A stretch of DNA of 34,117 nt from Nitrospirota bacterium (lineage in GTDB: Bacteria > Nitrospirota > Thermodesulfovibrionia > Thermodesulfovibrionales > SM23-35), in the NCBI GenBank assembly GCA_014859105.1, contig JACUUX010000002.1, forward strand, positions 1 through 34,117. The letters run 5' to 3'. Shown piece by piece: positions 2,571 through 27,239 of this stretch. The notes under the pieces were generated by a model. It ran no database searches and had not been told where the DNA came from. It worked only from the letters and a program-made list of their open reading frames with translations. Each line of letters opens with the position of its first letter. The first letter of the stretch is position 1. A program made the position numbers and the translations under genes.

Positions 2571-3971
2571 TCAGCCCACTAAGAATTTTCTTATATTCAA
2601 TCTCTGGTCAACGATAATGATTTTTCCGGAGGGTGTTCTTGATATATCATCAGTAAAGATTATTTCTATGTCTAAGGTTTCCTTCATATGGCCGAGCATC
2701 TCGGCAAGCTTTGATTTTATGAATATAGTATCTGTGTCTGTATACTTTTCTGTTTTCACCACTTTCAGATAAGCCTTCCCCAGTTGTTCCTGAAAGAACT
2801 GATATTGTTTGGTATTTGGAAATACCCTTATCCATGGCATAAGTCTGGGAATTACCTTTTCTTCTTTATTTATTAGAAAGTCATTTATTCTTCCTTCGAT
2901 CATGTCAATAAGCTGATGCTTACGGCCGCATTCCGGACAGGAGTCATTGCCTCTCATCCCGATATCATTTGTTTTATACCTAATCAGGGGCATAACATAA
3001 TTGGTAAAACCGGTAGTTATTATCTCTTTGTGATCATTATCCAATGAAATAAATTCAGTTAAACCGTACTGGGGGTAAGTGTGCAGACTGCTCGAATGTT
3101 CACATTCACCGGCAAACACGGCCAATTCGGTCATTACATATATAGAAAAAACCCTGACACCTAACGCCTCCTCTATAAGATTCCTTTGCCAGTGGTACAA
3201 TGTCTCAGATTGCGTTATTACTGTCTTTAAGCTTTTAAAATTTGAATAGCCTTTTTCCTTTATGTATGCAGAGAAAATTGCTAATGTATTCGGGTAGCCG
3301 ATTATAAACTCAGGTTCAAATCTTACAATCGTATTATAGAAAGTTTGCATCCATTTGTCCGTAATATAATTAACTGAAAGGATAAGCCTATTCCCATACT
3401 TCAGGAAAGGATATTTACGCTTACCTAACTTGATCATGCCCCAGAACATAACTATTTTGCTCTTTGGAGTACAGCCTGCCCTGAGGAGCAAGTCGTCCCA
3501 AAAAGCAGTAAATATTCTCTGCGGTTCTTTGGTTTTATAAAAGGTTAGGGGTATCCCGGTAGAACCACTTGTGGACTTCATTAACAGGGATTTTCGCGGG
3601 ACACTGCTATCTATAAATTCATGGAGACTGTCCCTGACTGTTTCCTTATTCAGATAAGGTAGAACCTTTATATCATCGAGAGTCTGCAGTCTCTCTGGAT
3701 CAAACCCATAATCAGAAAAAAGTTTTTTGTAATAAGGAATATTTTTTATTGCGTGCTTTAACAGATTTTTAAGCTGTTCGATCTGGTATGCTTTTATCCT
3801 GTCTTTATCCCACTTCTCAGATTCTTGCAAAAAAGCCCGCCAGTGAAGATATGATCGGCCATAAATAAATTTATACCTGAAAAATAAAGGCAGTCGCTCA
3901 TAAATCTCAAGGGCGACTCTCTCTAATTTTGCTAAACCGAGAAATTTCTTTATTGTCTCTAATGTTCCCAT
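2571..3971 (-). CDS. PaaK/CapK-like adenylate-forming enzyme, copy A
   Basis: This 466-residue protein belongs to the ANL superfamily near phenylacetate-CoA ligase and coenzyme F390 synthetase/CapK. Visible motifs are the phosphate loop STSGSTG (133-139), the A5-like YVMTE (278-282), the A7-like LIRYKTNDIG (329-338), GRINDFLI (360-367) and a C-terminal TPSGK with the A10 lysine. C290, H292, C345 and C348 make a plausible zinc site of the kind found in PaaK-type ligases. The family activates a carboxylate as acyl-adenylate and passes it to CoA or another acceptor; members beside glycosyltransferases are mostly uncharacterised. The A7 motif has N where RTGD normally has G. It is a paralogue of the equally long protein at 9021-10421. 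It begins the run leading into GT4 copy A and the methyltransferase. Confidence 0.85.
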   Translation of the reverse strand: MGTLETIKKFLGLAKLERVALEIYERLPLFFRYKFIYGRSYLHWRAFLQESEKWDKDRIKAYQIEQLKNLLKHAIKNIPYYKKLFSDYGFDPERLQTLDDIKVLPYLNKETVRDSLHEFIDSSVPRKSLLMKSTSGSTGIPLTFYKTKEPQRIFTAFWDDLLLRAGCTPKSKIVMFWGMIKLGKRKYPFLKYGNRLILSVNYITDKWMQTFYNTIVRFEPEFIIGYPNTLAIFSAYIKEKGYSNFKSLKTVITQSETLYHWQRNLIEEALGVRVFSIYVMTELAVFAGECEHSSSLHTYPQYGLTEFISLDNDHKEIITTGFTNYVMPLIRYKTNDIGMRGNDSCPECGRKHQLIDMIEGRINDFLINKEEKVIPRLMPWIRVFPNTKQYQFFQEQLGKAYLKVVKTEKYTDTDTIFIKSKLAEMLGHMKETLDIEIIFTDDISRTPSGKIIIVDQRLNIRKFLVG

Positions 3972-4251: not shown

Positions 4252-5301
4252 GTGGGCAGAAAACCTATTGTAAGTGTCCTGACTCTCGTATTTAACCACG
4301 GCCCCTATATAAAAGAGACTATCGATAGTGTCCTGAAACAGACCTATCAGAACTGGGAATGGATAATCATTGATGACGGTTCAACAGACGGTACCGGTGA
4401 TGTTATAAAAAACATCAAGGATAGCAGGATAAGGTATCTCTGTCAGGAAAATACGGGTTTTGACAGCCAGGTTAAAAATTATAATAAAGCCCTCAGTATG
4501 AGCAGTGGTGACCTGGTGGCGATGCTTGATGGAGACGATTACTGGCCGGAGTACAAGCTTGAAGTGCAGGTGAAGAGCTTTGATGACCATGGCATTATTC
4601 TCAGCTACGGGGAATGCTGTTTGATAAACCAGGGAGGAAAGAGTATAGGCTATATGGACCTCTCAGATAATGCGAGCATAGCCTGTAATACTCCGATAGG
4701 GTCATCCCTGAAAGCATTTCTGAAGATAGTTAAGTTAAAAAGATATTTATTCATGCATAATTCAACTGTCATGCTTAAGAGGAGTGCCTTGTTAAATATC
4801 GGTGGATTTATATATGCACCAATGGCTCATGGAGATTTTCCGACGTGGACAAGGCTTTCTCTCGAAGGCAGGTTCTCGGCTATACCTGCCTGTCTCGGAT
4901 ACTGGCGGAGACATCCTTCAGCTGCAACTTTCGGGCGCAATCCGTTACATTTATTCGATGCCGGGATTAGCTTCCTTAAAGGATTCATTTTAGAGAATGA
5001 GAAAAAACTTAAGGAAATCGGCTTTTCATATGATATAGATGACCTTGAGAAACGCTGGCAAGAGACGAGAAAGGAATTTGTTACTTATCATCCTTATAAC
5101 ACGGCATTGCAGATGATGAAGCCTGGTTTATTTGAAAAGTCCAAATCTGAATTTTTAAGTTTTTTAGAGAAAGACCGATCCCTTAAGTCCGGAATGATTT
5201 ATTCTCTTATCGCTCTTTCATCCCTGTTAAATTTTGATATTCTTCATCCCGTTATAGACTTGAAAGAAAGGTTAAGAAAGATTCCCATGCTTTATAAATA
5301 G
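4252..5301 (+). CDS. Glycosyltransferase family 2 (GT-A)
   Basis: This GT2 enzyme has the nucleotide-binding VSVLTLVFNHG strand and loop at residues 7-17, DDGST at 41-45 and the metal-binding DGDD at 93-96, followed by an acceptor region and a helical C-terminus. It should transfer a sugar from a nucleotide donor in the cytoplasm. I chose GTG at 4252 because AGGA lies 6 bases before it and because GT2 proteins start just before the first strand. An upstream in-frame GTG at 4198 would add 18 residues encoded largely by the end of the MITE-like element. It is the only plus-strand gene in the first 12.7 kb and its tail overlaps the opposed gene by 10 bases (5292-5301). Confidence 0.88.
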   Translation: MGRKPIVSVLTLVFNHGPYIKETIDSVLKQTYQNWEWIIIDDGSTDGTGDVIKNIKDSRIRYLCQENTGFDSQVKNYNKALSMSSGDLVAMLDGDDYWPEYKLEVQVKSFDDHGIILSYGECCLINQGGKSIGYMDLSDNASIACNTPIGSSLKAFLKIVKLKRYLFMHNSTVMLKRSALLNIGGFIYAPMAHGDFPTWTRLSLEGRFSAIPACLGYWRRHPSAATFGRNPLHLFDAGISFLKGFILENEKKLKEIGFSYDIDDLEKRWQETRKEFVTYHPYNTALQMMKPGLFEKSKSEFLSFLEKDRSLKSGMIYSLIALSSLLNFDILHPVIDLKERLRKIPMLYK

Positions 5302-6887
5302 GGATTCTTGGGGCTTTTTATAATCGGCAACTTTTTGAATCCTTTTGACATCTCCGGATATGCACGGACAACCTGAAGCGTATCAGCCTGTTTCCACAAT
5401 TCAGATGTTATACCGGCACCTGAACTCCTGCCCCGGAGCTTATCGAGCAGGACATTCTTGAAATTATTCTCATTCAGATTTCTCACCTCCGGACTCACGG
5501 CAATAATGAGATTACACAACCCCTTGTCATCCTGCTTCTCCCAGAACTGATAGTCATCGGGACATCCGCCGGCGTCTTCGATCAGCCCCGCGATTATATC
5601 ATCGAGATCAGAACCGAGGAGTGTCATACCCTCTCCGGTCAGTTTGTCGTAACTCCGGACCTCTGATATATGCACATTCATACCCAGCTCACCAAATAAA
5701 CAACTGCATGGTTTAACCTCTAATCTGCCGAAATCTCCTATTTCTGTATTTAACAGGACCTTTCCGGTAGTGGACAACAAAGATGTAAACAAAAAGCTAT
5801 TTATGTTATGTTCCCCGATATTTGTCCTGCGTTGCATCTGTATGACTGCAAGACGATCAAGGTAAACATGCATTTCATCCGGCGGCGTCCTGTTCGCACA
5901 GGAAGCTCCTATCAATCCTGATTCAGTGGCTACATATCTTGGAAAGGCATTCACTCCTGCCGATTCCATAAACCCTAGCCTCCTCTCTGTAAGCGGTTCT
6001 CCTCCTGTAAAGATGACATTCCCGCCGATATCTATACCTCTATCTATCGCAGCCTGAACAACACGTACAGCTGAACTCGTATAAGTCCTTACCACACATT
6101 TTCCTTTGCTTCTTTTAGCTTTCTCCATCCATTCCGCAACTTTTACTGCATCCCCGATACCTGCCAACTCTATAGGGGGAGCAGAAAGGCCAAACATGCG
6201 GCAAACCCATGAAATGTATTGCATGGCGAAACGATTCCTTAAAGACGGTCTAATCATTCCGCTCCCCAGATGAGAGAACCACTTCTCGGGAGGTCTGCGA
6301 AACTTTATATTCATCAGAAGGTTATGAATACCTGATATGGCAGGCAGTCCCGGGAGCCAGAGAGCTAAAGGCAGAGCAGTAAGTCCGTGGGTTTCATAGA
6401 GTATCAATTCGCTGGCAGCTTCTTCAGCAATAAAATCCCAGTCGTACATCACACGTGTGCCCTTTGAGCGGCTTCCGCTCGTTGAAGCCTGTATGCTCTT
6501 GCCCATGAGAAAGGGGTTGTCAAAATCGGGTTCTGTGGTTTCAAAAGTTAATCCGTTTCTGCATACAGGGATTTTTGACTTAAATTCCTCGAGGGTTAAA
6601 TAAACCCCTTCATCCCGCAATTTTTCCAGCGTCTTCTCAATGCCTTCATGTCTGACACTATCCTCAAGGTCGCCATAATCACATCCCGCCCATAAAAGAA
6701 GCTTGCGGTAGGGGCTGTATTTATTCCCGTAAATGATATTCTTTGCTATGCTCAAGAAGTTTTTTTCACGGTTATCCATCCTGTGCCTGACGTCATCTAT
6801 CGCATGTTCAAGAGTTAATGGTCGCCTGAGATAATTATGGAAACCCCAGGTTATAAGAGCCAGTTGTCTGATTCGACTTATTTGCAT
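5292..6887 (-). CDS. PaaK/LuxE-like adenylate-forming enzyme of a divergent type
   Basis: About 531 residues. Weak but ordered ANL-superfamily signatures are visible: a Ser/Thr/Gly phosphate loop STSGSRSKGT (135-144), RYVATES (317-323) as the A5 motif, and LNTEIGDFG (379-387) in the place of the A7 motif. It differs strongly from the two 466-residue PaaK-like proteins nearby, and no standard A10 lysine motif stands out. It most likely activates a carboxylic acid as adenylate, as in LuxE or PaaK, but the substrate is unknown. The start at 6887 is preferred over TTG or other upstream codons because GGAAG sits 7 bases upstream, and the preceding gene stops one base before it, which implies tight coupling with the binding-protein-like gene. 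A function other than acyl activation remains possible. Confidence 0.7.
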   Translation of the reverse strand: MQISRIRQLALITWGFHNYLRRPLTLEHAIDDVRHRMDNREKNFLSIAKNIIYGNKYSPYRKLLLWAGCDYGDLEDSVRHEGIEKTLEKLRDEGVYLTLEEFKSKIPVCRNGLTFETTEPDFDNPFLMGKSIQASTSGSRSKGTRVMYDWDFIAEEAASELILYETHGLTALPLALWLPGLPAISGIHNLLMNIKFRRPPEKWFSHLGSGMIRPSLRNRFAMQYISWVCRMFGLSAPPIELAGIGDAVKVAEWMEKAKRSKGKCVVRTYTSSAVRVVQAAIDRGIDIGGNVIFTGGEPLTERRLGFMESAGVNAFPRYVATESGLIGASCANRTPPDEMHVYLDRLAVIQMQRRTNIGEHNINSFLFTSLLSTTGKVLLNTEIGDFGRLEVKPCSCLFGELGMNVHISEVRSYDKLTGEGMTLLGSDLDDIIAGLIEDAGGCPDDYQFWEKQDDKGLCNLIIAVSPEVRNLNENNFKNVLLDKLRGRSSGAGITSELWKQADTLQVVRAYPEMSKGFKKLPIIKSPKNPYL

Positions 6888-6888
6888 A

Positions 6889-7752
6889 TTAACTTCCAAG
6901 ACTCCCTGCAGCTCTGTCAAGAAATGTTAAGTCGCTATAATTTGTTGGAAGCTTCTCTATGTAGCCGAGTTTCATCATAAGAGAGAGAACATTTTCCATT
7001 GCTTTCCTGTTCCTGATTGCATCAACATCCGGTCTATTTACATTTAAGGCATCACGGATAAACCTCACACTAATGCCAATATAACCGGAAGATATCTCTG
7101 CAGATTCATCAGGATTGTCTCTTACGAAAATCGCCCCGCGCACGAACGCCTTGACCACGCTTTGCACGGTCTCAGGGGCGGTTTCTTTCATCTGAACAGT
7201 CGTTGTCAGAGAACACCCCGGCGCCCCTTGCCATATGTCTCCTGTTCTCTTTACCACCGTCCCGACACCCAGTCCCTCCATCATGGTCGCATAAGGCTCT
7301 ACCATTGAAGCTGCATCAGCCCCCATACCAAAAAGAGCTATAATTGCCCCGTCACCGGATGGAAGTCTGACAAGCTCGACATCTTTCCACCCCAGATTTT
7401 CTATTAATCCCATTGCTGTCAGGTCTTTCATGCCTCCTCTCTGCGGAATAGCAACCCTTTTCACATCGGAAGTGCTTATCCCCTTTCGAATAACTATAGC
7501 AGCCTCTTCAAAACCTGAACCGGAAATTAATACAAGCGGTATATCTTTTTCTTCTGCTGCTGCAACTCTTGTCCATGGAATAACTGCAAATTGGCATTCA
7601 CCGCTCATTAGTTTATTTGGAACCATCCATGCAGTAGGTTCAATGCTTAACATAGCATGGATTCCTTCTTCTTTAAAAAAACCTTTTTCATGTGCCACGT
7701 AAGCCGGCATCTGACAGATACCCCTGAGCAGGGAAAAAGTAACCTTCTCCAT
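6889..7752 (-). CDS. NMT1/THI5-type periplasmic-binding-fold protein lacking a signal peptide
   Basis: This 287-residue protein looks like an SsuA/TauA/THI5-type substrate-binding protein: the opening PAYVAHEKGFFKEEGI (residues 16-31) is the classic NMT1 signature, followed by a segment on sampling wealth of small residues and a second lobe. It starts directly with the first beta strand (MEKVTFSLLR), with no signal peptide or lipobox, so it should stay in the cytoplasm. No ABC permease or ATPase of the nitrate/taurine class is beside it. The start has a strong AAGGAGG 6 bases upstream. It is coupled to the downstream adenylating enzyme (1-base gap). Cytoplasmic members of this fold include enzymes such as THI5 and the MqnA/MqnD group, so it may be an enzyme or a small-molecule carrier; which one is unknown. 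Confidence 0.75.
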   Translation of the reverse strand: MEKVTFSLLRGICQMPAYVAHEKGFFKEEGIHAMLSIEPTAWMVPNKLMSGECQFAVIPWTRVAAAEEKDIPLVLISGSGFEEAAIVIRKGISTSDVKRVAIPQRGGMKDLTAMGLIENLGWKDVELVRLPSGDGAIIALFGMGADAASMVEPYATMMEGLGVGTVVKRTGDIWQGAPGCSLTTTVQMKETAPETVQSVVKAFVRGAIFVRDNPDESAEISSGYIGISVRFIRDALNVNRPDVDAIRNRKAMENVLSLMMKLGYIEKLPTNYSDLTFLDRAAGSLGS

Positions 7753-7815
7753 AAAAACCTCCTTATTGTTTTTATTCCAGAAATGTCTTAAAAATCCGAA
7801 AAATAAAAAATATAA

Positions 7816-8976
7816 CTATGAATCCATCATTTTAGTAAAATACCGTTTGGCAAATGGTCTTTTAAAAAACTCCGGTACTAATGGCTTTAAAAATCTTGAT
7901 AATCCAATCTTCCTGCTTTCTTGCTTCATAAATTTAATTCGTTCTTCTACCATAATTCTCGCAACCTTTCCCGGAAGCGTTCTTGTTTCTTGAGATCTGG
8001 ACAAAAGCCTCCTTACTTTTTTGCTATAATCACTCTTAAAAATTTCCTCTATCTTATTATCACTCATATAATGTCTCATCAGACTTCCTAAAACTCCACC
8101 CGAGTTGGAGACAAAATCGGGAAGGCATATCTGACCTTTTTCAAACAAGGCCTCTTCGAATCTCTCAGTCAAAGGCGCATTCACACCCACGCATATGATC
8201 TTTGCTTTTATTTTCTCTATAGCCAGTGTTTCAGCAACAAACGACCTTCCGCAAAAAACCAGGATATCAACAGGCAGATAATACAATTCGTGATTCTCGA
8301 TCTTCGCCGTGTCAGGATATTTAAAGATCATCCCGTCCTTATACCTATCCTTTATCCGGATGAGGGTATCAATGTCCAGGCCTTCCTCTTTATATATAGC
8401 GCCAAGTTTATTTGATACTCCAACGACTGTAAAACCATTCTCAGAAAATATCTTTGCAACCTCAGATCCAACTTTGCCAAATCCTTCTATAGCAACCTTT
8501 CCATTCCTGATGCCCGTGATCTTCAATGTCTCTTCAGCCGCTGCATAAATTGTCCAGCTTGTATAAATATGTGATACATCTTTCCACTTATTTAATCTGA
8601 GGTTTACCCCTGCCCCTCTTTCAAGCTCTTTAAGATCATCAAGCGTCGTACCCAGGTCGATACCCGGCAGATATATCTTATTTTTTAGTAAAGGAGCAAT
8701 TTTTTTGCCAAATCTTCTAAATACATTCTTTCTCTTCTCCTGATCCTCACCATTTATTATTACGCCTGCTTTAGCGCCACCTACAGGAAGACCGAGAAAA
8801 CCATATTTCATAGTCATTGTCCTTGCATTCTGGATAAGCTCGTCAATAGTAAGGTCGGGAACTGTTCTTATACCTCCCCAGCAGTTATTGTTAATGATAG
8901 AATCAATCACGAGATAGCCTGTTACTCCAGATTCATCATATATCTCGCATATAATTTCCGGTGTTATTTTATCCAT
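7816..8976 (-). CDS. Glu/Leu/Phe/Val dehydrogenase family enzyme
   Basis: This 386-residue protein matches the amino-acid dehydrogenase fold. The dimerisation/catalytic N-domain shows GGIR (34-37), MTMKYG with K57, LPVGGAKAG with the catalytic-type K69, and GIDLGT with D107. The NAD(P) domain begins VAIEGFGKVG (161-170), and LPDFVSNSGGV matches the conserved glycine/asparagine stretch. All key residues seem present, so it is probably active in oxidative deamination of an amino acid or reductive amination of a 2-oxo acid. GAKAG instead of GAKGG and the C-terminal tail rich in basic and aromatic residues are unusual. It sits 44 bases after a PaaK-like ligase and 63 before the binding-protein-like gene, which suggests it makes or consumes the acid those enzymes activate. 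Confidence 0.85.
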   Translation of the reverse strand: MDKITPEIICEIYDESGVTGYLVIDSIINNNCWGGIRTVPDLTIDELIQNARTMTMKYGFLGLPVGGAKAGVIINGEDQEKRKNVFRRFGKKIAPLLKNKIYLPGIDLGTTLDDLKELERGAGVNLRLNKWKDVSHIYTSWTIYAAAEETLKITGIRNGKVAIEGFGKVGSEVAKIFSENGFTVVGVSNKLGAIYKEEGLDIDTLIRIKDRYKDGMIFKYPDTAKIENHELYYLPVDILVFCGRSFVAETLAIEKIKAKIICVGVNAPLTERFEEALFEKGQICLPDFVSNSGGVLGSLMRHYMSDNKIEEIFKSDYSKKVRRLLSRSQETRTLPGKVARIMVEERIKFMKQESRKIGLSRFLKPLVPEFFKRPFAKRYFTKMMDS

Positions 8977-9020
8977 ATGTTAAAAATGTTAAAACCCTTC
9001 ATACCTTTATCATTGAGAAG

Positions 9021-10421
9021 TTAATTTATAAAATCTCTTATATCAAGCCTCTGCTCAACCATCCTGTATTTTACCAGAGGATAAAATTCCTTCTTATCCA
9101 TCAGCAAAACCGCAAATTCCATCCTGTCTCCTTGAGGACCAAAGCTGCTCTTTATGGCATTTAATACCATATCTATATCAGCATTTATATGTTTAGGCCA
9201 TATCCTCAACTCCACCTTGCCCGGGATATGCTGATATAACTGGAACCGCTCGATATCCTCGAAGAGCCTGAAGTCTATATTAAGATAGACAGAGACGATC
9301 TGTCCATCTGCATTAATCAGGAAATCTCCCATACGCCCTTCGATCCCGGACAATGTCTCATAATTTCTCCCGCACCTGTCGCACACCTTCCCGACACCTT
9401 CACAAACGTCCCCTGTCCTGTACCTGATCAAGGGCATGGCATAGTTGATGAATCCGGTGCCCACCAATTCATGGCGGGAATTTCCCGGATCGAGATATTC
9501 GGTGAGACCATATTGAGGATAAAGATGATAAGCATCGGAATGTTCGCATCCCCCTCCATGTATCACTTTCTCCACCATCCCGTAATCAGAGAATACCCTT
9601 GCCCCAAAAACATCCCTGATGAACTCCCTCTGCCATCCGTAGAGATTCTCTGCATAAACAATGATACCCTTCAAACCGTCATAAACGGACTTCTCTCTTT
9701 TCCTGACATAGGAAGAAAATACAGCAAGCGTGTGGGGAAAGCCTATCATATATTCAGGTCTGAAATTATTTATCATCTCCATATATCTATCCGTCCATTC
9801 ATCTGTAAAATAATTGCTTGAAAGAATTAACTTATTTCCGTATTTTTTATAGGGCAGATTGTCTCTGCCACCATGCCGTATATTGGCCTCAAAGAAAATC
9901 GTTCTTGATGCGGGACTATATCCGATTCTGCTCCAGAGATTAATCACAGTTGCCCAGTGTTTCTCTTCCGTCTCTTTTGTGCCATAGAGTGTGAGGGGTA
10001 TCCCTGTTGTACCGCTTGTGTCAGCCGGTATCAGCCTGTCTTTCGGGATGTTACCTGCTACAAATTCATCGTGTCTTTTCTTTACTGTCTTGCGGTCTAT
10101 GTATGGTAATATTTTGACATCGTTCAAACTCTGAATCTTCTCGGGTCTGAATTGAAGGTCTGCAAAAACTTTCTTATAATAAGGAACGTTCTTTCCGGCA
10201 TGTATCAGCAAATCCCTCAATTGCTCAACCTGATATGCCTCAAGCCTGTCTCTGTCCCATTTCTCTGATTCCTTTAAAAATGCAAGCCAGTGTCTGAATA
10301 CGGGGCCATAAGAGATGCCATATCTGAACCGCACGGGAAGCCTCTCCAGAACCTCCCTTACAGCCCTCTCAATAACCCTGCTGGATTCTATAAACTTTCT
10401 AATAACCTGTAAACCTTTCAT
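9021..10421 (-). CDS. PaaK/CapK-like adenylate-forming enzyme, copy B
   Basis: This 466-residue paralogue of the 2571-3971 protein has cleaner motifs: phosphate loop TSGTTG (135-140), YGMVE (280-284), LIRYRTGDV (331-339), GRMGDFLI (362-369) and a putative zinc site C292, H294, C347, C350. The C-terminal TPSGK of copy A is replaced by PLVKY, but the lysine is kept. The reaction expected for the family is ATP-dependent formation of an acyl-adenylate and then an acyl thioester or other conjugate. Its start overlaps the GT2 upstream by 23 bases, so the two are probably translated together, and the dehydrogenase-like gene follows after 44 bases. The linkage of ligase, glycosyltransferase and amino-acid enzyme hints at acylation of a sugar, which is inference. 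Confidence 0.87.
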   Translation of the reverse strand: MKGLQVIRKFIESSRVIERAVREVLERLPVRFRYGISYGPVFRHWLAFLKESEKWDRDRLEAYQVEQLRDLLIHAGKNVPYYKKVFADLQFRPEKIQSLNDVKILPYIDRKTVKKRHDEFVAGNIPKDRLIPADTSGTTGIPLTLYGTKETEEKHWATVINLWSRIGYSPASRTIFFEANIRHGGRDNLPYKKYGNKLILSSNYFTDEWTDRYMEMINNFRPEYMIGFPHTLAVFSSYVRKREKSVYDGLKGIIVYAENLYGWQREFIRDVFGARVFSDYGMVEKVIHGGGCEHSDAYHLYPQYGLTEYLDPGNSRHELVGTGFINYAMPLIRYRTGDVCEGVGKVCDRCGRNYETLSGIEGRMGDFLINADGQIVSVYLNIDFRLFEDIERFQLYQHIPGKVELRIWPKHINADIDMVLNAIKSSFGPQGDRMEFAVLLMDKKEFYPLVKYRMVEQRLDIRDFIN

Positions 10422-11427
10422 ATTTTAATCGCTGGAGAAATCCGTAGCCTTTAACCAGATTGTGAAAAAATGGACCAGGAACAAATAATGCTACAAAACT
10501 TACAGCAATACCTTTTAAAAAGTCTTTATAATTAAAGTCTCCCTTGAAAAGTGCCGGTATCTGCCTTATCCCTTCAATTCTTTTGCCGGTAAGAACATTA
10601 TAAAAGATTATCTCTTTAGCCCGGACTCTTTTGATTGTATTTAGATCTATTGCCTTCATGCAGAAACCCTCACAATTCTTGATTATCTCTAAAAACCTTT
10701 GCCGCATATGCGCAAAATCCATGTTGACTTTAGCCATCTCGCTGCAATCACGATGCCCTGCAAACATTGTTGTGTTATCACTGTGCAGCCTGTATTTACC
10801 CAGCGTCTCCGGGATATACTCTGTCTGCGCATAACATGATGATAAAGCAACCATATAAAAATCTATCCCCCTTTTTATATCTTCAGGGACCGGATAAGCT
10901 CTTTTTACAACATCCCGTCTAAAGGCAAAAGAACTGCCGCCACAGAATATCCGGCCGGAGCTGATGTCGTTAGTGACCCAGCCCCTGATGCCTTCCTTAT
11001 AACCGAAGGACTTGTTAAAATTCCTATGAATGATGTTTCCATTACTATCAATCAACTCAATAGAGTGATAAACAAGCCCCGCTTCAGGGCTTTCCATGAA
11101 TTTATTTACTACCTTCCGGATTCTTTCTTCGTACCACTCATCGTCAGCATCAAGAAAGGTGATTATCCCGCCTTTTGCGACAGCCAGTCCCCTGTTCCGG
11201 GCACCCGCTATGCCCCTGTTTTCCTGATAGATGTAGGTGACCCTGTCCAGATATTCATGAACGATTTCGCCGGTGTTATCATCAGAACCGTCATCAATAA
11301 CGATTATCTCCGTGAGTCCGGCCGGATATGTCTGACGGAAAATGCTCTCAATGGCAAACTTAATGAAGGAACCGTTATTGAATGCAGGAACAATTACAGA
11401 AACTACCGGATGTCTGCCGTGTGTCAT
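10399..11427 (-). CDS. Glycosyltransferase family 2 (GT-A)
   Basis: This 342-residue inverting GT2 enzyme has VSVIVPAFNNG (9-19), DDGSD (45-49), RGIAGARNRG (71-80) and the metal site DADDEW (93-98), then a C-terminal helical part with a hydrophobic stretch (IAVSFVALFVPGPFF) that may associate with the membrane. It likely adds one sugar to the undecaprenol-linked chain in the cytoplasm. It lies 18 bases after GT4 copy B and overlaps PaaK-like copy B by 23 bases, so it belongs to that operon. The donor sugar is not predictable. Confidence 0.9.
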   Translation of the reverse strand: MTHGRHPVVSVIVPAFNNGSFIKFAIESIFRQTYPAGLTEIIVIDDGSDDNTGEIVHEYLDRVTYIYQENRGIAGARNRGLAVAKGGIITFLDADDEWYEERIRKVVNKFMESPEAGLVYHSIELIDSNGNIIHRNFNKSFGYKEGIRGWVTNDISSGRIFCGGSSFAFRRDVVKRAYPVPEDIKRGIDFYMVALSSCYAQTEYIPETLGKYRLHSDNTTMFAGHRDCSEMAKVNMDFAHMRQRFLEIIKNCEGFCMKAIDLNTIKRVRAKEIIFYNVLTGKRIEGIRQIPALFKGDFNYKDFLKGIAVSFVALFVPGPFFHNLVKGYGFLQRLKYERFTGY

Positions 11428-11445: not shown

Positions 11446-12723
11446 CTATGAATGACGCCTGTAAACTCCATTAATAAACTCCTCGTATTTCGAGGCTACC
11501 CTTTCCCATGTAAATTCCTTTACCCAATTACGGCCTCTCAGACCCATCTCTTGACGTTTATTACTGACCATAAGTTCTTGCATAGTCTGTGAGAGAGAAT
11601 AGGGGTCCTCGAATGCAAAAGCAATTCCCGTACCCTTTTGAATAACAAAATCAAACCCGGAGATCTGACTTACTATAACAGCCTTGCTGCATGCCATTGC
11701 TTCGAGAACCGAAATTGGTTGAACCTCATGCCTTGAGGGGAAGACGCAGAATAATGCCTTTCTTATAACCTCTGTTTTTTTATCACCGGAAACCCATCCT
11801 GTAAGTGCTAAGTTTTTTCTTACGTCTTCAGGTAATTCAGCAAGCATGCTTTTGAACCCTTCCATGTCCTTTCCATCACCTGCGATTACCAGTCTTATAT
11901 CAGGGAATGATTTATAGAATTCCTTATATGCCTTTATAAGGATATCAAGCCCTTTCCCGTAAATATCTATCCTGCCGAGATAAAGAATATAATCACCGTC
12001 TTCAGGTGAGGTATCCAATAATTCCGGTGATATGCCGTTAGGGATGATTGCAATGACTTTCTTGGTTTTTAATGGAAAAAATCCCCCCTCACCCCCCTTT
12101 ACTAAAGGGGGGGTGGGGGGATTATCGGGTAAGAGTCTTTTTACAGGCAAGTCAGGCGAGACGCCTGACCTACTGATGCATGGGAATATATAACTGGTAG
12201 GACAGGCGTCCCGCCTGTCCGAAGAGATATCTTCAGATAAAACTCTTCTTAGGGTCTCTGTATTCACAAATATAAAATTCTTATAAAATTTCGGCCTCAG
12301 GTATTCCATAAAGTAGAGAAAAAGGGCATAAACTAAATTATATTTTTTAAAATAAAGTCTGCCCGTATATCCCTGTACCTGAAGGACCAGAGGCTTTCTT
12401 GTAAAGATGTGTAAAAATGTGGGGATAGCAGGAGAGAATTCTTCGATGATGATATCAAATTTCTCTCCATGCCTTCTGACAAATGATGCAGCCCGGTATG
12501 CATACAAAAGCAGGGTTTTAGTTAAACTCTTGCTTTCAGTGCCAGCAAAGATGTGTCTTAATCCCTCCATCTCCCTATTTTTAGCACCCGGGTATTTCTT
12601 GCATAAAAGGGTGACATCGTGTCTGTCTTTCAGATATTTGTATATTTCATATGCTCTTGTACCAACACCACCGGTGCCGAAATAATCACCTTTGCTTTCA
12701 TAGAGAATATGAAGGATTTTCAC
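11446..12723 (-). CDS. Glycosyltransferase family 4 (GT-B), copy B, with repeat-encoded insertion
   Basis: A GT4 enzyme of about 425 residues, paralogous to 1440-2561. It has FGTGGVGTRAYEIY near the start, PNGISPELL, LGRIDIYGKGLDILI and the E-x7-E motif EVQPISVLE. I place the start at GTG 12723 (VKILHILYES) because it aligns with the start of copy A; an in-frame TTG at 12795 would add 24 residues without similarity. About 55 residues (roughly 163-218) between the two GT-B domains are absent from copy A and are encoded by three palindromic repeats (12080-12220), giving a peptide with NPPTPPLVKGGEGGFF. The frame is kept throughout, so the enzyme may still be active. It is the first gene of the minus-strand operon. 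Confidence 0.88.
   Translation of the reverse strand: MKILHILYESKGDYFGTGGVGTRAYEIYKYLKDRHDVTLLCKKYPGAKNREMEGLRHIFAGTESKSLTKTLLLYAYRAASFVRRHGEKFDIIIEEFSPAIPTFLHIFTRKPLVLQVQGYTGRLYFKKYNLVYALFLYFMEYLRPKFYKNFIFVNTETLRRVLSEDISSDRRDACPTSYIFPCISRSGVSPDLPVKRLLPDNPPTPPLVKGGEGGFFPLKTKKVIAIIPNGISPELLDTSPEDGDYILYLGRIDIYGKGLDILIKAYKEFYKSFPDIRLVIAGDGKDMEGFKSMLAELPEDVRKNLALTGWVSGDKKTEVIRKALFCVFPSRHEVQPISVLEAMACSKAVIVSQISGFDFVIQKGTGIAFAFEDPYSLSQTMQELMVSNKRQEMGLRGRNWVKEFTWERVASKYEEFINGVYRRHS
12080..12124. repeat. C-rich/G-rich palindromic repeat inside the GT4 gene
   Basis: The arms AATCCCCCCTCACCCCCCTT and its G-rich complement flank ACTAA. On the minus strand it encodes NPPTPPLVKGGEGGFF in frame with the glycosyltransferase. 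Closely similar units occur in other genes at 28589-28635 and, in degenerate form, at 17169-17203. Confidence 0.8.
12151..12220. repeat. Pair of facing GGCGTCCCGCC-type palindromes inside the GT4 gene
   Basis: Two palindromes, 12151-12173 (GTCAGGCGAGACGCCTGAC plus CTAC) and 12197-12220 (GTAG plus GACAGGCGTCCCGCCTGTC), face each other across 23 bases. The same facing pair lies inside the element at 4054-4228. Here both are translated in frame, giving DRRDACPT and RSGVSPDLPVK. Confidence 0.8.
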
Positions 12724-12760
12724 TTTTTCATTAGTGACTTTGAGCAGTTTTATATCGCCT

Positions 12761-12789
12761 TTGATAACACGGTTATTATACAATATACA
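12761..12789 (+). promoter_or_regulatory. Putative sigma-70-type promoter for the wzm/wzt operon
   Basis: TTGATA (12761-12766) and TATACA (12784-12789) are separated by 17 bases. Transcription would begin close to 12796, only at the first ATG (12795) of the permease; this favours translation from the in-frame ATG at 12807. The call rests on motif spacing only. Confidence 0.3.
12775..12780 (-). promoter_or_regulatory. Putative -10 box for the minus-strand GT4 operon
   Basis: A perfect TATAAT reads on the minus strand about 50 bases before the GT4 start at 12723. No good -35 hexamer is found 16-18 bases upstream, so support is weak. It overlaps the plus-strand promoter candidate, which would make the region divergent and mutually exclusive. 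Confidence 0.25.
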
Positions 12790-12794
12790 AAACA

Positions 12795-13580
12795 ATGATT
12801 CGATATATGCAGGAAATCCCGCTGATAATAAGTTATAAGGAGCTCCTGAGAAACCTCGTTTTAAGGGATATCAAGAAAAGATATAAAAGGTCGGCTCTCG
12901 GATTTCTCTGGGTGATGCTTGACCCCTTATTAATGATGCTTATTTTTTATATCATCTTCGCCGGAATTTTCAAAAGAACCATAGACAATTATACTGCTTA
13001 TGTCATGGCAGGAATTATCATGTGGCAGCTTTTTTCACAGGGCACAAAGGTTGCTTCAACGGCATTTATCCACAACCGGGATCTTATTAATAAGCTCTAC
13101 CTCCCGAAATCTATCTTTCCTATTTCAAATGTGGCATCTTCACTTGCCCATTTTATCTTCGCACTCATTCCGCTTTTTATTATTATGATTTTCTCGGGTA
13201 CAGCTATCAGTCATAACATTGTTCTGCTTCCTTTCATTGTCATGCTCATTTTCTTATTTTCCATTGGTATTTCTCTTACTGTCTCTACTCTTACAGTTTT
13301 CTTCCACGATGTCATATACATTTATGAAGTCTTATTGATGGGCTGGATGTATTTCTCGGCGATATTCTATCCGGTTTCCATCCTTCCTGAAAAACTCCAA
13401 TTTCTCATGTCTCTGAATCCTGTTTATCATTATATAACGCTTTTCAGGGCATGTCTGTATGACAATACTCTGCCACTAACTGAACATTTCGTTTTTGGAG
13501 CGGTTTTTGCCCTCCTTTCTTTTTCTATAGGATGGGTTATTTACAATAAAAATAAAGAAAAGATTATATTTTATCTCTGA
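12795..13580 (+). CDS. wzm: ABC-2 type polysaccharide export permease
   Basis: This 261-residue membrane protein is the permease subunit of an ABC glycan exporter. The amphipathic N-terminus with ELLRNLVLRDIKKRYKRS, followed by GFLWVMLDPLLMMLIFYIIF, is characteristic of Wzm/TagG/KpsM proteins. About six membrane helices can be recognised, with the short NPVYHYITLFR re-entrant-type segment before the last ones. It should form a homodimer with the ATPase encoded 19 bases downstream and move a finished undecaprenol-linked glycan from cytoplasm to periplasm. The start may be ATG 12795 or ATG 12807; neither has a clear Shine-Dalgarno. It is transcribed divergently from the GT4 operon on the left, which probably supplies its substrate. 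Confidence 0.92.
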   Translation: MIRYMQEIPLIISYKELLRNLVLRDIKKRYKRSALGFLWVMLDPLLMMLIFYIIFAGIFKRTIDNYTAYVMAGIIMWQLFSQGTKVASTAFIHNRDLINKLYLPKSIFPISNVASSLAHFIFALIPLFIIMIFSGTAISHNIVLLPFIVMLIFLFSIGISLTVSTLTVFFHDVIYIYEVLLMGWMYFSAIFYPVSILPEKLQFLMSLNPVYHYITLFRACLYDNTLPLTEHFVFGAVFALLSFSIGWVIYNKNKEKIIFYL

Positions 13581-13599
13581 GCAGAACAGAAACTATTTT

Positions 13600-14343
13600 A
13601 TGATCAGTCTTCAGGGTGTTTCGGTCAAATACAGGCTCATAAAAGAAAAGAAAAGGTCTTTTCAGGCACATCTCATAAATTATTTCAAGGGAAAAAGAAT
13701 TCAAATACAGGTTCTCTGGGCATTAAGAGACATATCCCTTAATTTGAACAAAGGAGAATCACTCGGAATAATCGGCCACAATGGTGCCGGGAAAAGTACC
13801 CTTTTAAAGGTTGTCTCCGGAGTAATAAAGCCTGCCGGAGGAATCGTCAAAGTAAACGGGAAAATAGCACCATTGATAGAGCTAAGTGCCGGATTTGACC
13901 CTGAACTGACGGGAAGAGAAAATATTTATCTGAATGCCTCAATACTTGGTTTTTCAAGAAAGGAAATAGATAAAAAATATGACAGTGTTGTCGAGTTCTC
14001 TGAGCTGAGAGATTTTATCGATACGCCACTCAAGAACTATTCTTCAGGTATGATCGCCCGTCTGGGCTTCTCTATAGCTACGGAAGTTGATCCTGACATA
14101 CTGATAATAGATGAAGTTCTGGCTGTTGGTGATGCGTGGTTTAAAGAGAAAAGTAAAGAGCGGATATTAGAATTCAGGAAAAAAGGTGTTACCACACTCT
14201 TTGTCTCACATAATATGGAAGAGATTAAAAGCCTCTGCAGCAAAGTTCTCTGGCTTGAACATGGAAAGATAAAGATGCTCGGCGACCCTGAAAGCGTTAT
14301 CTCCGAATATGGAAAGGAGGTGATCCGATTCTCTGAAGCTTGA
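13600..14343 (+). CDS. wzt: ABC-type polysaccharide export ATPase, short form
   Basis: This 247-residue nucleotide-binding subunit partners with the upstream permease. It has Walker A GHNGAGKST (59-67), the KIAPLIELSAGFDPELTGREN stretch typical of Wzt/TagH split across residues 88-107, signature YSSGM (147-151), Walker B ILIIDE (167-172) and the switch histidine in VSHN. It ends shortly after the ATPase fold and lacks the C-terminal carbohydrate-binding domain that longer Wzt proteins use to recognise capped chains, so this exporter is likely of the chain-cap-independent type, as in systems with length set elsewhere. It follows wzm by 19 bases. The second Wzt in the window, at 32245-33849, has a long extension. 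Confidence 0.93.
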   Translation: MISLQGVSVKYRLIKEKKRSFQAHLINYFKGKRIQIQVLWALRDISLNLNKGESLGIIGHNGAGKSTLLKVVSGVIKPAGGIVKVNGKIAPLIELSAGFDPELTGRENIYLNASILGFSRKEIDKKYDSVVEFSELRDFIDTPLKNYSSGMIARLGFSIATEVDPDILIIDEVLAVGDAWFKEKSKERILEFRKKGVTTLFVSHNMEEIKSLCSKVLWLEHGKIKMLGDPESVISEYGKEVIRFSEA

Positions 14344-14568: not shown

Positions 14569-15267
14569 CTGAACGTATTAATCGTAATTCCTGCCTATAA
14601 TGAAGAAGCAAGTATCGGGCATGTTATTAATGATGTCAAAAAGAGCAATCCCGACACGGACATACTGGTTGTCAATGACGGTTCTACCGATAATACATCG
14701 GAAATAGCGAAACAGACGGATGTTCTGGTATTAGATATCCCATTCAATATAGGATACGGTGGGGCTGTTCAAGCAGGGTTTCAATTTGCAACTAAATACG
14801 GATATGACGTGGTTATTACCATGGATGGAGATGGACAGCATGATCCCCTGTCTGTCAATAACCTGATAGAAAAGATGATTCAGGAGGGAGCAGATGTGGT
14901 TATCGGCAGCCGTTTTATTGAAGGTACATATAAGATGAGTGCCGGCAGGAAAATCGGGGTACGGTTGTTTTCAAAGATAGCGGGTATATATACAGGGAAA
15001 AACTTCACAGATCCCACTTCGGGCTTTCAACTGCTGAATAGAAAAGTTTTCTCACTCCTTTCTGAAGGCGATAATTATCCGTTGGACTATCCTGATGTAA
15101 ATATCATTATGATTCTCCACAAGATGAGATTTAATGTCGTTGAGTCTCCGGTAAAGATGAATGAAAAACCCGGTGGCAAGTCTATGCACAGTGGTTTGAA
15201 GCCATTAATATATATATTGCAGATGTTTTTAGCCGTTCTAATGGTTTATTTGAGAAAGGAGGATTGA
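14569..15267 (+). CDS. DPM1-like polyprenyl-phosphate glycosyltransferase (GT2) with apparent CTG start
   Basis: Reading from 14569 gives 232 residues beginning LNVLIVIPAYNEE, with VVNDGST (34-40), MDGDGQHDP (85-93), GSRF and DPTSGFQL, the layout of dolichol/undecaprenyl-phosphate sugar synthases. These transfer a sugar to polyprenyl phosphate for later use outside the membrane. The frame is open from 14530, but no ATG, GTG or TTG occurs before GTG 14809, which would delete the essential NDGST region. CTG 14569 has GAGGGAG 7 bases upstream and stands exactly where family members start, so I take it as the start. An assembly error changing ATG is the alternative. The gene is followed after 4 bases by DUF2304, its usual partner. 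Confidence 0.85.
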   Translation: MNVLIVIPAYNEEASIGHVINDVKKSNPDTDILVVNDGSTDNTSEIAKQTDVLVLDIPFNIGYGGAVQAGFQFATKYGYDVVITMDGDGQHDPLSVNNLIEKMIQEGADVVIGSRFIEGTYKMSAGRKIGVRLFSKIAGIYTGKNFTDPTSGFQLLNRKVFSLLSEGDNYPLDYPDVNIIMILHKMRFNVVESPVKMNEKPGGKSMHSGLKPLIYILQMFLAVLMVYLRKED

Positions 15268-24034: not shown

Positions 24035-25501
24035 TTAATTGGCCAAGCGTACTTTAAATAAATGTGTGCGCATAGTGGCCCCCGATTGATACAGGTTTGT
24101 AAAATAGCTTTCCTTTATTCTAAAGTTAATCGCCTGAACATAAGAACGAGGAACAGATCCCATTTCGAATGTAGTTTTATATTTCGTATTACCCAACCCG
24201 GAAAGGTGACCAAGAAAGTAGTAATAAGGACCATTCTGTAACCAAACTTCAACTTTGGGGTTTCCTGTTGTTCCGCCCGTGACCCATCCGTACCAGGTGA
24301 TCTCTAACTTTGTGCCGCTTGAAAAGTCTGGATTGAGAAATCCCCTCAGAGCTATAGTGCAGGCTTCATCAACTCCGTCTCCATCTGCCTTAAAGTCCCA
24401 GTAGTTAATATCATCACCTTTAGGGCCGTTACTATGCCACGCATAATAGGGCCCGATAATAGAAACCCCTGGGGCTTCACACGCCCGGGCTCCAAACCAC
24501 GGGTCAACAGTGTTTTGCTCGGCATCCATAATCGCAAACTTAGCAGCCTCTATATCCCAAGGCCCAGGAAAGCCGTTACCGATGCCATAAGCGACCCATA
24601 TGTCTGGTGACTCTGAAAGTTGGTGGCCAAGCCCATCCCTCCAGAAGGCCGGCTCTAAAAGATATTGATATATTGGGTCTGAAAGTGATTTCCTCGCTTC
24701 GCTTATCGACAATTCTCCAAGAAGAGTTTTTGTTCCTTGTATAGTTGTTGAACTATAGATTCCTAACTTGGTAAATCCTGTATGCATGACGGAATACCAG
24801 ATCCCCGAAGAATACATAAAGTCCACTCCGAAATCTGTACCCGGTGTGATTCCCGGAGGTATATAAAATGTCCCACTGCTCCAGTTTATGCCATTCGTGG
24901 AGGTCCTAACACGAGCCCCCCATTGATTTGTACCGCTACCAAGTATTTCCGTGTGATGCATATAATAAGTCGAGCCAACCTTAACAACGCTTTGCTCGCC
25001 ACAGCCATAATAGTTTGGTACGATGGGGCAATCTACTACTTTCCCATACTTCACCCAATCTATTCCATCGGCAGATAAAGCCAACCCAATATCGTTGGAG
25101 CAACCTGAGGGATCTGATGTTCCCGTATACCACAAAGCCCAAGGGTAACCCTGTATATTTACACCATATAGTACGGAAGGATCGCAAACAAACAGTGAAT
25201 CCCAGCTGCCAGCAGTAGGCGCAAGTATTGCCTTCAGCGGATTTCGCGTCCAATCTATTCCATTAGAAGACACCCATCGATAAATTTTATCTTTACCCTC
25301 TCCGTCAGCGTTCCATCCGCACTGATACATCACCCATTGACTGCCATCCCATAGAATCGATGGAGCATAATCAGAAGAACTTGGGAAAGCCCAATTAATG
25401 TCTTGGAAGCGCATGCGTGGGTCAGCACTTCCAATACTGCCTGTAAAGAGAATGAAAAGCACAGCAAAAAGAGCCAACCCTAAGATTTGCTTTTTTTTCA
25501 T
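24035..25501 (-). CDS. Secreted five-bladed beta-propeller protein, glycosidase-like
   Basis: 488 residues from ATG 25501, which has GGAGGA 5 bases upstream. The N-terminus is a signal peptide (KKK, then LGLALFAVLFILFTG, cleavage probably after GSIGSA). Repeated blade motifs follow: DYAPSILWDGSQWVMYQCGW, CDPSVLYG...WALWYTG, GEQSVVKVGSTYYMHH and FGVDFMYSSGIWYSVMH, each with an opening acidic residue as in GH43/GH32/GH130-type propellers. Residues from about 375 to the end look like a beta-sandwich (KLEITWYGWVTGG, PKVEVWLQNGPYYYFLGHL). It may trim or bind the exported glycan, but catalytic residues cannot be assigned with certainty. Many cysteines fit an oxidising compartment. It is first in a run with the methyltransferase and ALG5-like genes. 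Confidence 0.8.
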   Translation of the reverse strand: MKKKQILGLALFAVLFILFTGSIGSADPRMRFQDINWAFPSSSDYAPSILWDGSQWVMYQCGWNADGEGKDKIYRWVSSNGIDWTRNPLKAILAPTAGSWDSLFVCDPSVLYGVNIQGYPWALWYTGTSDPSGCSNDIGLALSADGIDWVKYGKVVDCPIVPNYYGCGEQSVVKVGSTYYMHHTEILGSGTNQWGARVRTSTNGINWSSGTFYIPPGITPGTDFGVDFMYSSGIWYSVMHTGFTKLGIYSSTTIQGTKTLLGELSISEARKSLSDPIYQYLLEPAFWRDGLGHQLSESPDIWVAYGIGNGFPGPWDIEAAKFAIMDAEQNTVDPWFGARACEAPGVSIIGPYYAWHSNGPKGDDINYWDFKADGDGVDEACTIALRGFLNPDFSSGTKLEITWYGWVTGGTTGNPKVEVWLQNGPYYYFLGHLSGLGNTKYKTTFEMGSVPRSYVQAINFRIKESYFTNLYQSGATMRTHLFKVRLAN

Positions 25502-25812
25502 ATCGTCCTCCAATCTTTCTTGCCGATTACTTTAATCCAAATGCGGATATTGCTAAAAAATTTATTTAATTCGATGAGTTTATTAAAATATCTCTCTTAT
25601 ATGAACAAAAATATTGTTTAACCATCAGTTCAAAGTGCACTAAGGCATGAAAAGTAAAATTTTTCACAACATCTGCATTATTTCAATTAAAGTTTTTTGG
25701 ATTAATTTAACACATTATATAATATATCTTAAGCGTGCGGTTGCTGTCACCCAAATCCCGATATAGAAATTACATAAACCTATCCGAACAGTATTTAAAG
25801 CCAAATTTTTCA
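25502..25812. other. AT-rich gene-less stretch upstream of the secreted-protein gene
   Basis: Apart from the GGAGGA ribosome site at 25506-25511 this stretch holds no frame or repeat I can support. Its strong AT bias and position suggest it carries the promoter for the secreted-protein operon, but no convincing -35/-10 pair was found. Confidence 0.5.
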
Positions 25813-26365: not shown

Positions 26366-26824
26366 TTAATCTCTCTTGTCTAATCCTTTTCTGTAATCTT
26401 CTATAAAAATAACAATTTTTGAAATGAAGCGTTCAATATCAAGCAGGTGTTTTGTGAGAATCCCGTAAATCTCCTTCGACGTAATCTCATTATAAAGATG
26501 TACCATCCTGTTTCTATATCCGGCCATCTTTAAAAGTGTTCTGGCGTACTCTTTATCTATCACACCCCGCTCGCCCAGCTCTATAGCGATCTTTTTATAC
26601 TCAATTTCCTTAAAGCCATAACCCTTTGCCAGTATATGCCTTCCAATATCAAATATTGCCTCCAGTGAACGCCTCAAAAAACTCTCTGAAGCTGCGGCAT
26701 TCCTTCTGTCAGAAAGAAATTCCTCCTCGGACATCTTCGAAAGTCCTTTCAGTTCCAGAAGGGAGTCCTGTATTAAGGAGAGGTTCTTTTCTATCTTATC
26801 AACGTGTAATCTCGAAATAACCAT
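26366..26824 (-). CDS. hepT: HepT-type HEPN ribonuclease toxin (DUF86)
   Basis: This 152-residue all-helical protein has the HepT active-site pattern R-X4-H-X-Y as R104-NRMV-H109-L-Y111, following LLKMAGY, the classic DUF86 context. HepT toxins cleave RNA and are held inactive by the cognate nucleotidyltransferase, which adds AMP to the tyrosine of the motif. The gene overlaps the end of mntA by 26 bases, so both are made together. The pair follows a glycosyltransferase gene and may be read through from the polysaccharide operon. All key residues are present, so it is probably functional. Confidence 0.88.
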   Translation of the reverse strand: MVISRLHVDKIEKNLSLIQDSLLELKGLSKMSEEEFLSDRRNAAASESFLRRSLEAIFDIGRHILAKGYGFKEIEYKKIAIELGERGVIDKEYARTLLKMAGYRNRMVHLYNEITSKEIYGILTKHLLDIERFISKIVIFIEDYRKGLDKRD

Positions 26825-27239
26825 TTTTGACAGCCTCGATAAAATCCTTCTCAGATTCAGCCTTTTTAAATGAAAGGTCAGAGGCCACCTTCATCACCTT
26901 TTCTTCATACTCATCAATAAAGGATTCATCGTCACAACAGATAAGTTCACCAAGAATAGCCTCATACTGAAAGAAGGGGTCAGTTTCCTGAAGGAATACC
27001 AGATCAATATTAAAAGGGTCAAAAAAAACAGAAAGTTCGGCATAAAGTTCACCATAGGTGTCAAAAACATCTCCCGGCAACCTTTCAAACACAACTCCAA
27101 TATCAAGGTCTGCTTCTTTGTCAATATGCAGAATAGCGTTTTTAAGAAAGGCCACCCCTGCCTCCTTCTGAGAACCGAAAAGATAGGCTGCTTTAACTCC
27201 TTTTTTCATCAATAGCTTTGCTAAGGTTTCTCTTTTCAT
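26799..27239 (-). CDS. mntA: MntA-type nucleotidyltransferase antitoxin
   Basis: 146 residues. YLFGS (19-23) and DLDIGVVF (44-51) give the nucleotidyltransferase GS and DXD elements, and IDLVFL supplies the third acidic residue. It is expected to AMPylate the HepT tyrosine and so neutralise the toxin. The loop between GS and DXD is 20 residues, about twice the usual, and contains HIDKEA before the acidic pair, a feature seen in the subset of MntA proteins that use it to hold a helix. The start (AAAGAGA just upstream) is 6 bases after the stop of the GT2 gene. It overlaps hepT by 26 bases. Confidence 0.85.
   Translation of the reverse strand: MKRETLAKLLMKKGVKAAYLFGSQKEAGVAFLKNAILHIDKEADLDIGVVFERLPGDVFDTYGELYAELSVFFDPFNIDLVFLQETDPFFQYEAILGELICCDDESFIDEYEEKVMKVASDLSFKKAESEKDFIEAVKNGYFEITR

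Follow-up and report, generated by a model that had tools for sequence, protein, structure and literature searches.

The window examined here comprises bases 1 to 34,117 of a contig (C48) of 160,702 bases from the 3.16 Mb genome of a Nitrospirota bacterium. It carries a gene string that runs divergently from an ATP-binding cassette (ABC) polysaccharide exporter and contains four genes, here called CapKa, DH, NMT and ADE, which the original prediction had put forward as an acyl or aminoacyl decoration module. All four open reading frames (ORFs) are present, tightly packed on the same strand, and the locus is arranged as follows:

2571..3971, minus strand: CapKb, a paralogue of CapKa with a canonical PSGK motif
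5292..6890 (from an ATG start), minus strand: ADE, a divergent adenylate-forming enzyme of predicted PaaK fold
6889..7752, minus strand: NMT, a cytosolic NMT1/SsuA-fold protein without a signal peptide
7816..8976, minus strand: DH, an ELFV-type amino acid dehydrogenase of a glycan-cluster clade
9021..10421, minus strand: CapKa, a PaaK-like (CapK-type) adenylate-forming ligase
10399..11427, minus strand: GT2c, a family 2 glycosyltransferase (GT2) that overlaps CapKa and travels with it
11446..12795, minus strand: a family 4 glycosyltransferase (GT4) gene, which opens the string containing the four genes
12795..14343, plus strand: Wzm/Wzt-type ABC polysaccharide exporter genes, divergent from the string

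GT4 lies 18 bases upstream of GT2c, which overlaps CapKa by 23 bases, and this spacing, beside Wzm/Wzt, confirms the predicted continuity of the four genes with GT2 and GT4 genes. The gaps of 44 bases between CapKa and DH and of 63 bases between DH and NMT were borne out, whereas the 1-base gap given between NMT and ADE becomes a 2-base overlap if the alternative ATG at 6890, instead of the listed TTG (ORF 5292-6920), is the true start of ADE. The predicted gene set is real, but its coordinates leave out CapKb, which is 43% identical to CapKa.

The stretch is pieced together from three separable units: GT2c-CapKa, DH and NMT-ADE. The four genes had been expected to co-occur elsewhere, and independent occurrence had been named as grounds for rejecting the proposal. 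In 66 homologous ADE loci no DH gene was found close to ADE; the NMT-ADE pair is seen without CapKa and DH (twice away from glycan genes), and GT2c-CapKa without DH, NMT and ADE. This goes part of the way to such a rejection, although NMT and ADE themselves are still paired. A dedicated four-component acyl or aminoacyl decoration machine, with a logic comparable to Dlt or AlmEFG, would agree with the tight packing, the co-orientation and the fact that the families of all four genes, as had been claimed, produce, bind or activate carboxylic or amino acids. It fails because DH is missing near ADE and the other two units each occur alone, and the carrier-motif scan described below was empty; we consider such a machine improbable. 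The adenylating enzymes of the Dlt and Alm systems are of the nonribosomal peptide synthetase type, while ADE and CapKa are PaaK-like instead. What DltA/DltC and AlmE/AlmF/AlmG share with the locus is an adenylating enzyme, a small acid and an envelope molecule as end point, whereas no carrier protein or matching transferase was found in the window. In envelope aminoacylation by AlmE/AlmF/AlmG, the adenylating enzyme AlmE activates the small acid that ends on the envelope molecule (PMC12930378).

ADE was compared with Pfam, NCBIfam and PHROGs with no match at E ≤ 0.01, and it reached no curated family cut-off. An AlphaFold2 model built from a five-sequence alignment, with a predicted local distance difference test score (pLDDT) of 78.5, aligned over residues 34-534 with PaaK2 (2y4o) at Z 28.2 and 400 aligned residues; the predicted structure has the PaaK fold, C-terminal domain included, in keeping with the divergent PaaK/LuxE-like adenylating enzyme that had been proposed. 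Among 62 members, Asp396 is kept in 100% and Lys529 in 98%; by analogy, these would be the ATP-binding Asp and the C-terminal catalytic Lys. A Cys/His cluster (C341, H351, C405, C407) is likewise kept across ADE. Both ADE and CapKa resemble PaaK-type ligases (PaaK1/2, BT_0428, NatL2) in fold or sequence family, but ADE stays below every family cut-off at about 15% identity in the structural alignment, and its partners are binding proteins or radical SAM enzymes, phenylacetate pathway genes not having been seen adjoining it.

A single-sequence scan of genome contigs returned no match to ADE, while the five-sequence alignment recovered 73 loci spanning many phyla, one archaeon included; a plasmid search found no ADE. 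Among these loci, 16 of the 18 matches to NitT-type binding proteins directly adjoin ADE, the partners being secreted and belonging with other ADE clades (Fisher p about 2e-13, indicative only, as slot counts were rounded and related loci counted as independent). In four genomes from three phyla, two radical SAM genes come after ADE, at these loci:

L012, 8649-12029
L013, 786-4189
L090, 740-4068
L099, 9959 onward

The ADE proteins of these four form a 100/100 clade. Set against the other labelled rows of the ADE tree, radical-SAM-paired and binding-protein-paired enzymes are each grouped, whereas those with TonB-receptor or Nramp neighbours are not (transporter names were assigned by eye). Further neighbours include an isopropylmalate-dehydrogenase-like gene with isochorismatase/aldehyde dehydrogenase genes in one genome (G162) and TPR and GNAT genes in another (G221), and glycosyltransferases occur in 13 of the 57 loci of 8 kb or more. 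The G162 set, the G221 GNAT, the radical SAM pairs and the binding-protein transporters are neighbours that make or handle acids, a point in favour of the interpretation developed below.

NMT matches PF13379 and PF09084 above cut-off and begins with MEKVTFSLLRG, without a signal peptide; the four members of its clade are alike in this, while relatives carry a leader (judged by eye). Both observations agree with the cytosolic NMT1-type binding-fold protein described earlier. The best fold match of its predicted structure (pLDDT 89.8) is NrtA (Z 32.8, 285 residues, 2.1 Å), followed by a Staphylococcus aureus ABC binding component (Z 32.5) and the CmpC regulatory domain (Z 31.5); enzymes with the substrate-binding-protein fold lie at Z 19.3 to 23.6 (Thi5 23.6, MqnD 21.1, DszB 19.9). 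The fold is thus common to NitT/TauT/SsuA binding proteins and to Thi5, MqnD and DszB, but NMT differs from the binding proteins in having no signal peptide and no adjoining importer. Eleven residues are invariant in the NMT clade (R10, C13, W42, W60, R62, E82, E83, K109, D110, D134, C180), and the first nine are identical in all four cytosolic members, including an isolated copy in G542 that is 42% identical. Six of them (C13, W42, W60, R62, E83, K109) are absent from all six other aligned relatives, and R10, E82 and D110 occur among those relatives only in L154. This residue set would suit an enzyme as well as a highly specific binder. DszB-like catalysis through Cys13 and Arg62, suggested by the active-site positions of DszB, is a tentative lead only.

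NMT lies directly upstream of ADE in the window, in another Nitrospirota locus (L071; NMT 72% and ADE 60% identical) and in a Verrucomicrobiota locus (L136; 64% and 49%). In a Planctomycetota locus (L070), an intact ADE (56% identical) stands beside an internally deleted NMT remnant of 101 residues (9638-9943, plus strand). The four NMT-paired ADE proteins group together with 100/100 support, as do the cytosolic NMT proteins with 100/99. NMT is rare: 296 genomes of the window's phylum held one weak homologue, with a leader sequence, and 241 genomes of the L136 phylum held it only in the L136 genome itself and as an isolated copy without ADE. These data support NMT and ADE as a true pair, which appears undescribed; a literature search on NMT1 proteins with adenylating enzymes found nothing relevant. 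Tentatively, and with some doubt, NMT may be a cytosolic enzyme derived from a NitT-type binding protein; NMT and ADE would then convert and next adenylate a small organic acid, an undescribed two-step pathway that glycan and other pathways have recruited as a portable unit.

CapKa had no Pfam match, and its PaaK-family NCBIfam matches were all below cut-off; at 78 bits against TIGR02155 (cut-off 646 bits) it is not a phenylacetate-CoA ligase proper. These matches, together with a phmmer match to the PaaK-type ligase 4r1l (E 3.6e-20), uphold its identification as a PaaK-like ligase, and it carries a glycine-rich SGTTG loop and a C-terminal lysine in PLVKYRM. Its tie to a GT2 gene recurs in G156, where homologues of GT2c (51%) and CapKa (48%) overlap as in the window and are followed by a GNAT gene and a beta-keto acid cleavage enzyme (BKACE) gene; this four-gene string (L153 7626-11367, minus strand) lies outside a polysaccharide cluster, away from other glycan genes. 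In two related genomes, G227 and G272, CapKa homologues (67% and 56-60%) stand beside ADE, and in G227 homologues of CapKa and CapKb are close neighbours at two places, one of them beside ADE and the other near a NeuB gene. The ADE associated with CapKa/CapKb there belongs to a different subfamily from that of the window and is accompanied by two radical SAM enzymes. A literature search on CapK-type ligases in polysaccharide clusters found nothing relevant.

DH contains PF00208 and PF02812, both above cut-off, and belongs to the ELFV family: the predicted catalytic residues K57, K69 and D107 are in place and invariant in the aligned ELFV set. The Lys that binds the gamma-carboxylate of glutamate is replaced by Trp33 in DH and by A, I, R, S or G elsewhere in its clade, so that DH does not qualify as a glutamate dehydrogenase (GDH). 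Eight DH homologues cluster with 100/100 support, separately from 27 other ELFV enzymes, of which 26 resemble leucine dehydrogenase (LeuDH) and one is a GDH; several branches are long, and the order inside the clade is unsure. Relative to GDH, LeuDH and the tryptophan dehydrogenase ScyB, with which it shares the two-domain family and catalytic residues, the clade is set apart further by a C-terminal extension in several members and by Thr or Asn in place of the cofactor-loop Asp. The polysaccharide context claimed for DH holds for the clade: 7 of the 8 members adjoin glycosyltransferase genes, while the eighth (L189) is on a 4.2 kb contig, where one acetyltransferase-like gene and one AsnB-like gene give only thin evidence of a glycan context. 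AsnB-like genes adjoin DH homologues in L052, L186, L187 and L189, SerA-like 2-hydroxyacid dehydrogenase genes in L186 and L188, and CapK-like ligases lie near them in L052 and L053. The LeuDH-like loci inspected (L054-L060) gave no match to the window's glycosyltransferases, and a plasmid search returned a single DH match, at 27%. This glycan-cluster clade of amino acid dehydrogenases appears undescribed.

These observations bear on whether DH and NMT are ordinary amino-acid or thiamine metabolism genes that lie beside glycan genes by chance. Thi5 and the SsuA-type binding proteins have the same fold as NMT, glutamate dehydrogenases are distant relatives of DH, and the window's genome has no other ELFV match. 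The DH clade, however, keeps to glycan clusters, separate from the LeuDH-like enzymes of its relatives, and lacks the glutamate-binding lysine throughout, and among proteins with structures, those closest to NMT in sequence are mostly NitT/SsuA-type binding proteins rather than Thi5. We regard ordinary metabolism as very improbable.

The family assignments give every unit a role with small acids, and glycosyltransferase genes open the string; acid decoration of an exported glycan is therefore the leading explanation: with a probability of roughly one half, the units make and activate an acid that ends on the ABC-exported polysaccharide, with exchangeable supply genes. The original prediction is, overall, partly supported. 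Gene order, family assignments, the predicted folds of ADE and NMT, conserved residues of catalytic type, clade membership and recurring neighbours are observed; the substrates, the order of steps, the acceptor and the joint working of the units we infer as follows. DH would form an amino acid by reductive amination of a non-glutamate 2-oxo acid, or run in reverse; NMT would bind or convert a small organic acid, which ADE would adenylate; and CapKa, with the overlapping GT2, would activate an acyl or aminoacyl group destined for one of the sugars in the exported glycan. Supply genes would be exchangeable, CapKa/CapKb occurring with another ADE and a radical SAM pair, or GT2-CapKa with GNAT and BKACE. 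Glycan sugars bearing amino acid and amide groups are known from the Wbp/Vim pathway, which produces 2-N-seryl or 2-N-glycyl uronic acid sugars and in which WbpS, an AsnB-like protein, performs amidation (PMC7468200). The AsnB-like genes beside DH relatives may point the same way, but no AsnB-like gene was seen in the window, which has an amino acid dehydrogenase and PaaK-like ligases instead.

Several observations weigh against acid decoration by these units. The exact four-gene set was found only in the window, ADE and CapKa are not co-oriented in G227 and G272, no recognised acyltransferase is present in the gene string, and a simple carrier-protein motif scan of short ORFs of the window and related loci, run with no positive control, found none. 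The most serious reservation concerns NMT-ADE, which may be a passenger, that is, an independent two-gene unit for a small organic acid that stands by chance at the 3' end of the polysaccharide string, so that only GT2c-CapKa and DH serve the glycan. The pair is conserved amid unrelated surroundings in Nitrospirota and Verrucomicrobiota, with ADE and an NMT remnant in Planctomycetota: it lies among patatin, SDR, mtnA and ald-like genes in L071 and heme-biosynthesis-like genes in L070, neither a glycan cluster, and among GNAT-like, Mur-ligase-like and flippase-like genes in L136 (names from reading the sequences, with no family scan). ADE is elsewhere linked mainly to uptake systems, with NitT-type binding proteins directly adjoining, and the G+C content of NMT and ADE is the highest among the measured genes (0.455 versus 0.400 for the window), which fits a separate origin. 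On the other side, ADE genes of a different subfamily are found next to CapKa/CapKb in G227 and G272 as well, so that genes of the ADE type return to the site time and again, and the L136 pair lies near Mur-ligase-like and flippase-like genes. We hold a passenger origin to be possible, if on the doubtful side.

Elsewhere on the contig, a second Wzt-like ATPase, whose C-terminal part is long (window 32245-33849, minus strand), and a second Wzm-like permease just past the window end (L018 351-1121, minus strand) indicate two ABC glycan exporters. A GT2 ORF at 14809-15267 (plus strand), followed by a DUF2304 gene, covers only positions 82-164 of the Pfam GT2 profile and is therefore probably truncated, frameshifted or mis-started. 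The minus strand also encodes a 951-residue protein that contains three GT2 stretches and whose middle resembles a coiled coil (29389-32244), a 492-residue protein with a signal-peptide-like start and without a Pfam match (24035-25513), and a HepT-like RNase gene overlapping a Polbeta nucleotidyltransferase gene in a HepT/MntA-type toxin-antitoxin layout (26366-27239).

Taken together, the locus draws attention to two enzyme groups to which no role has been assigned: one is a PaaK-fold adenylating family, widespread but lacking a database model, that often occurs with a binding protein; the other is the dehydrogenase clade of glycan clusters. Either group could explain unusual acyl or amino acid groups on bacterial surface sugars, and exchangeable supply genes would explain the variation of such coats.

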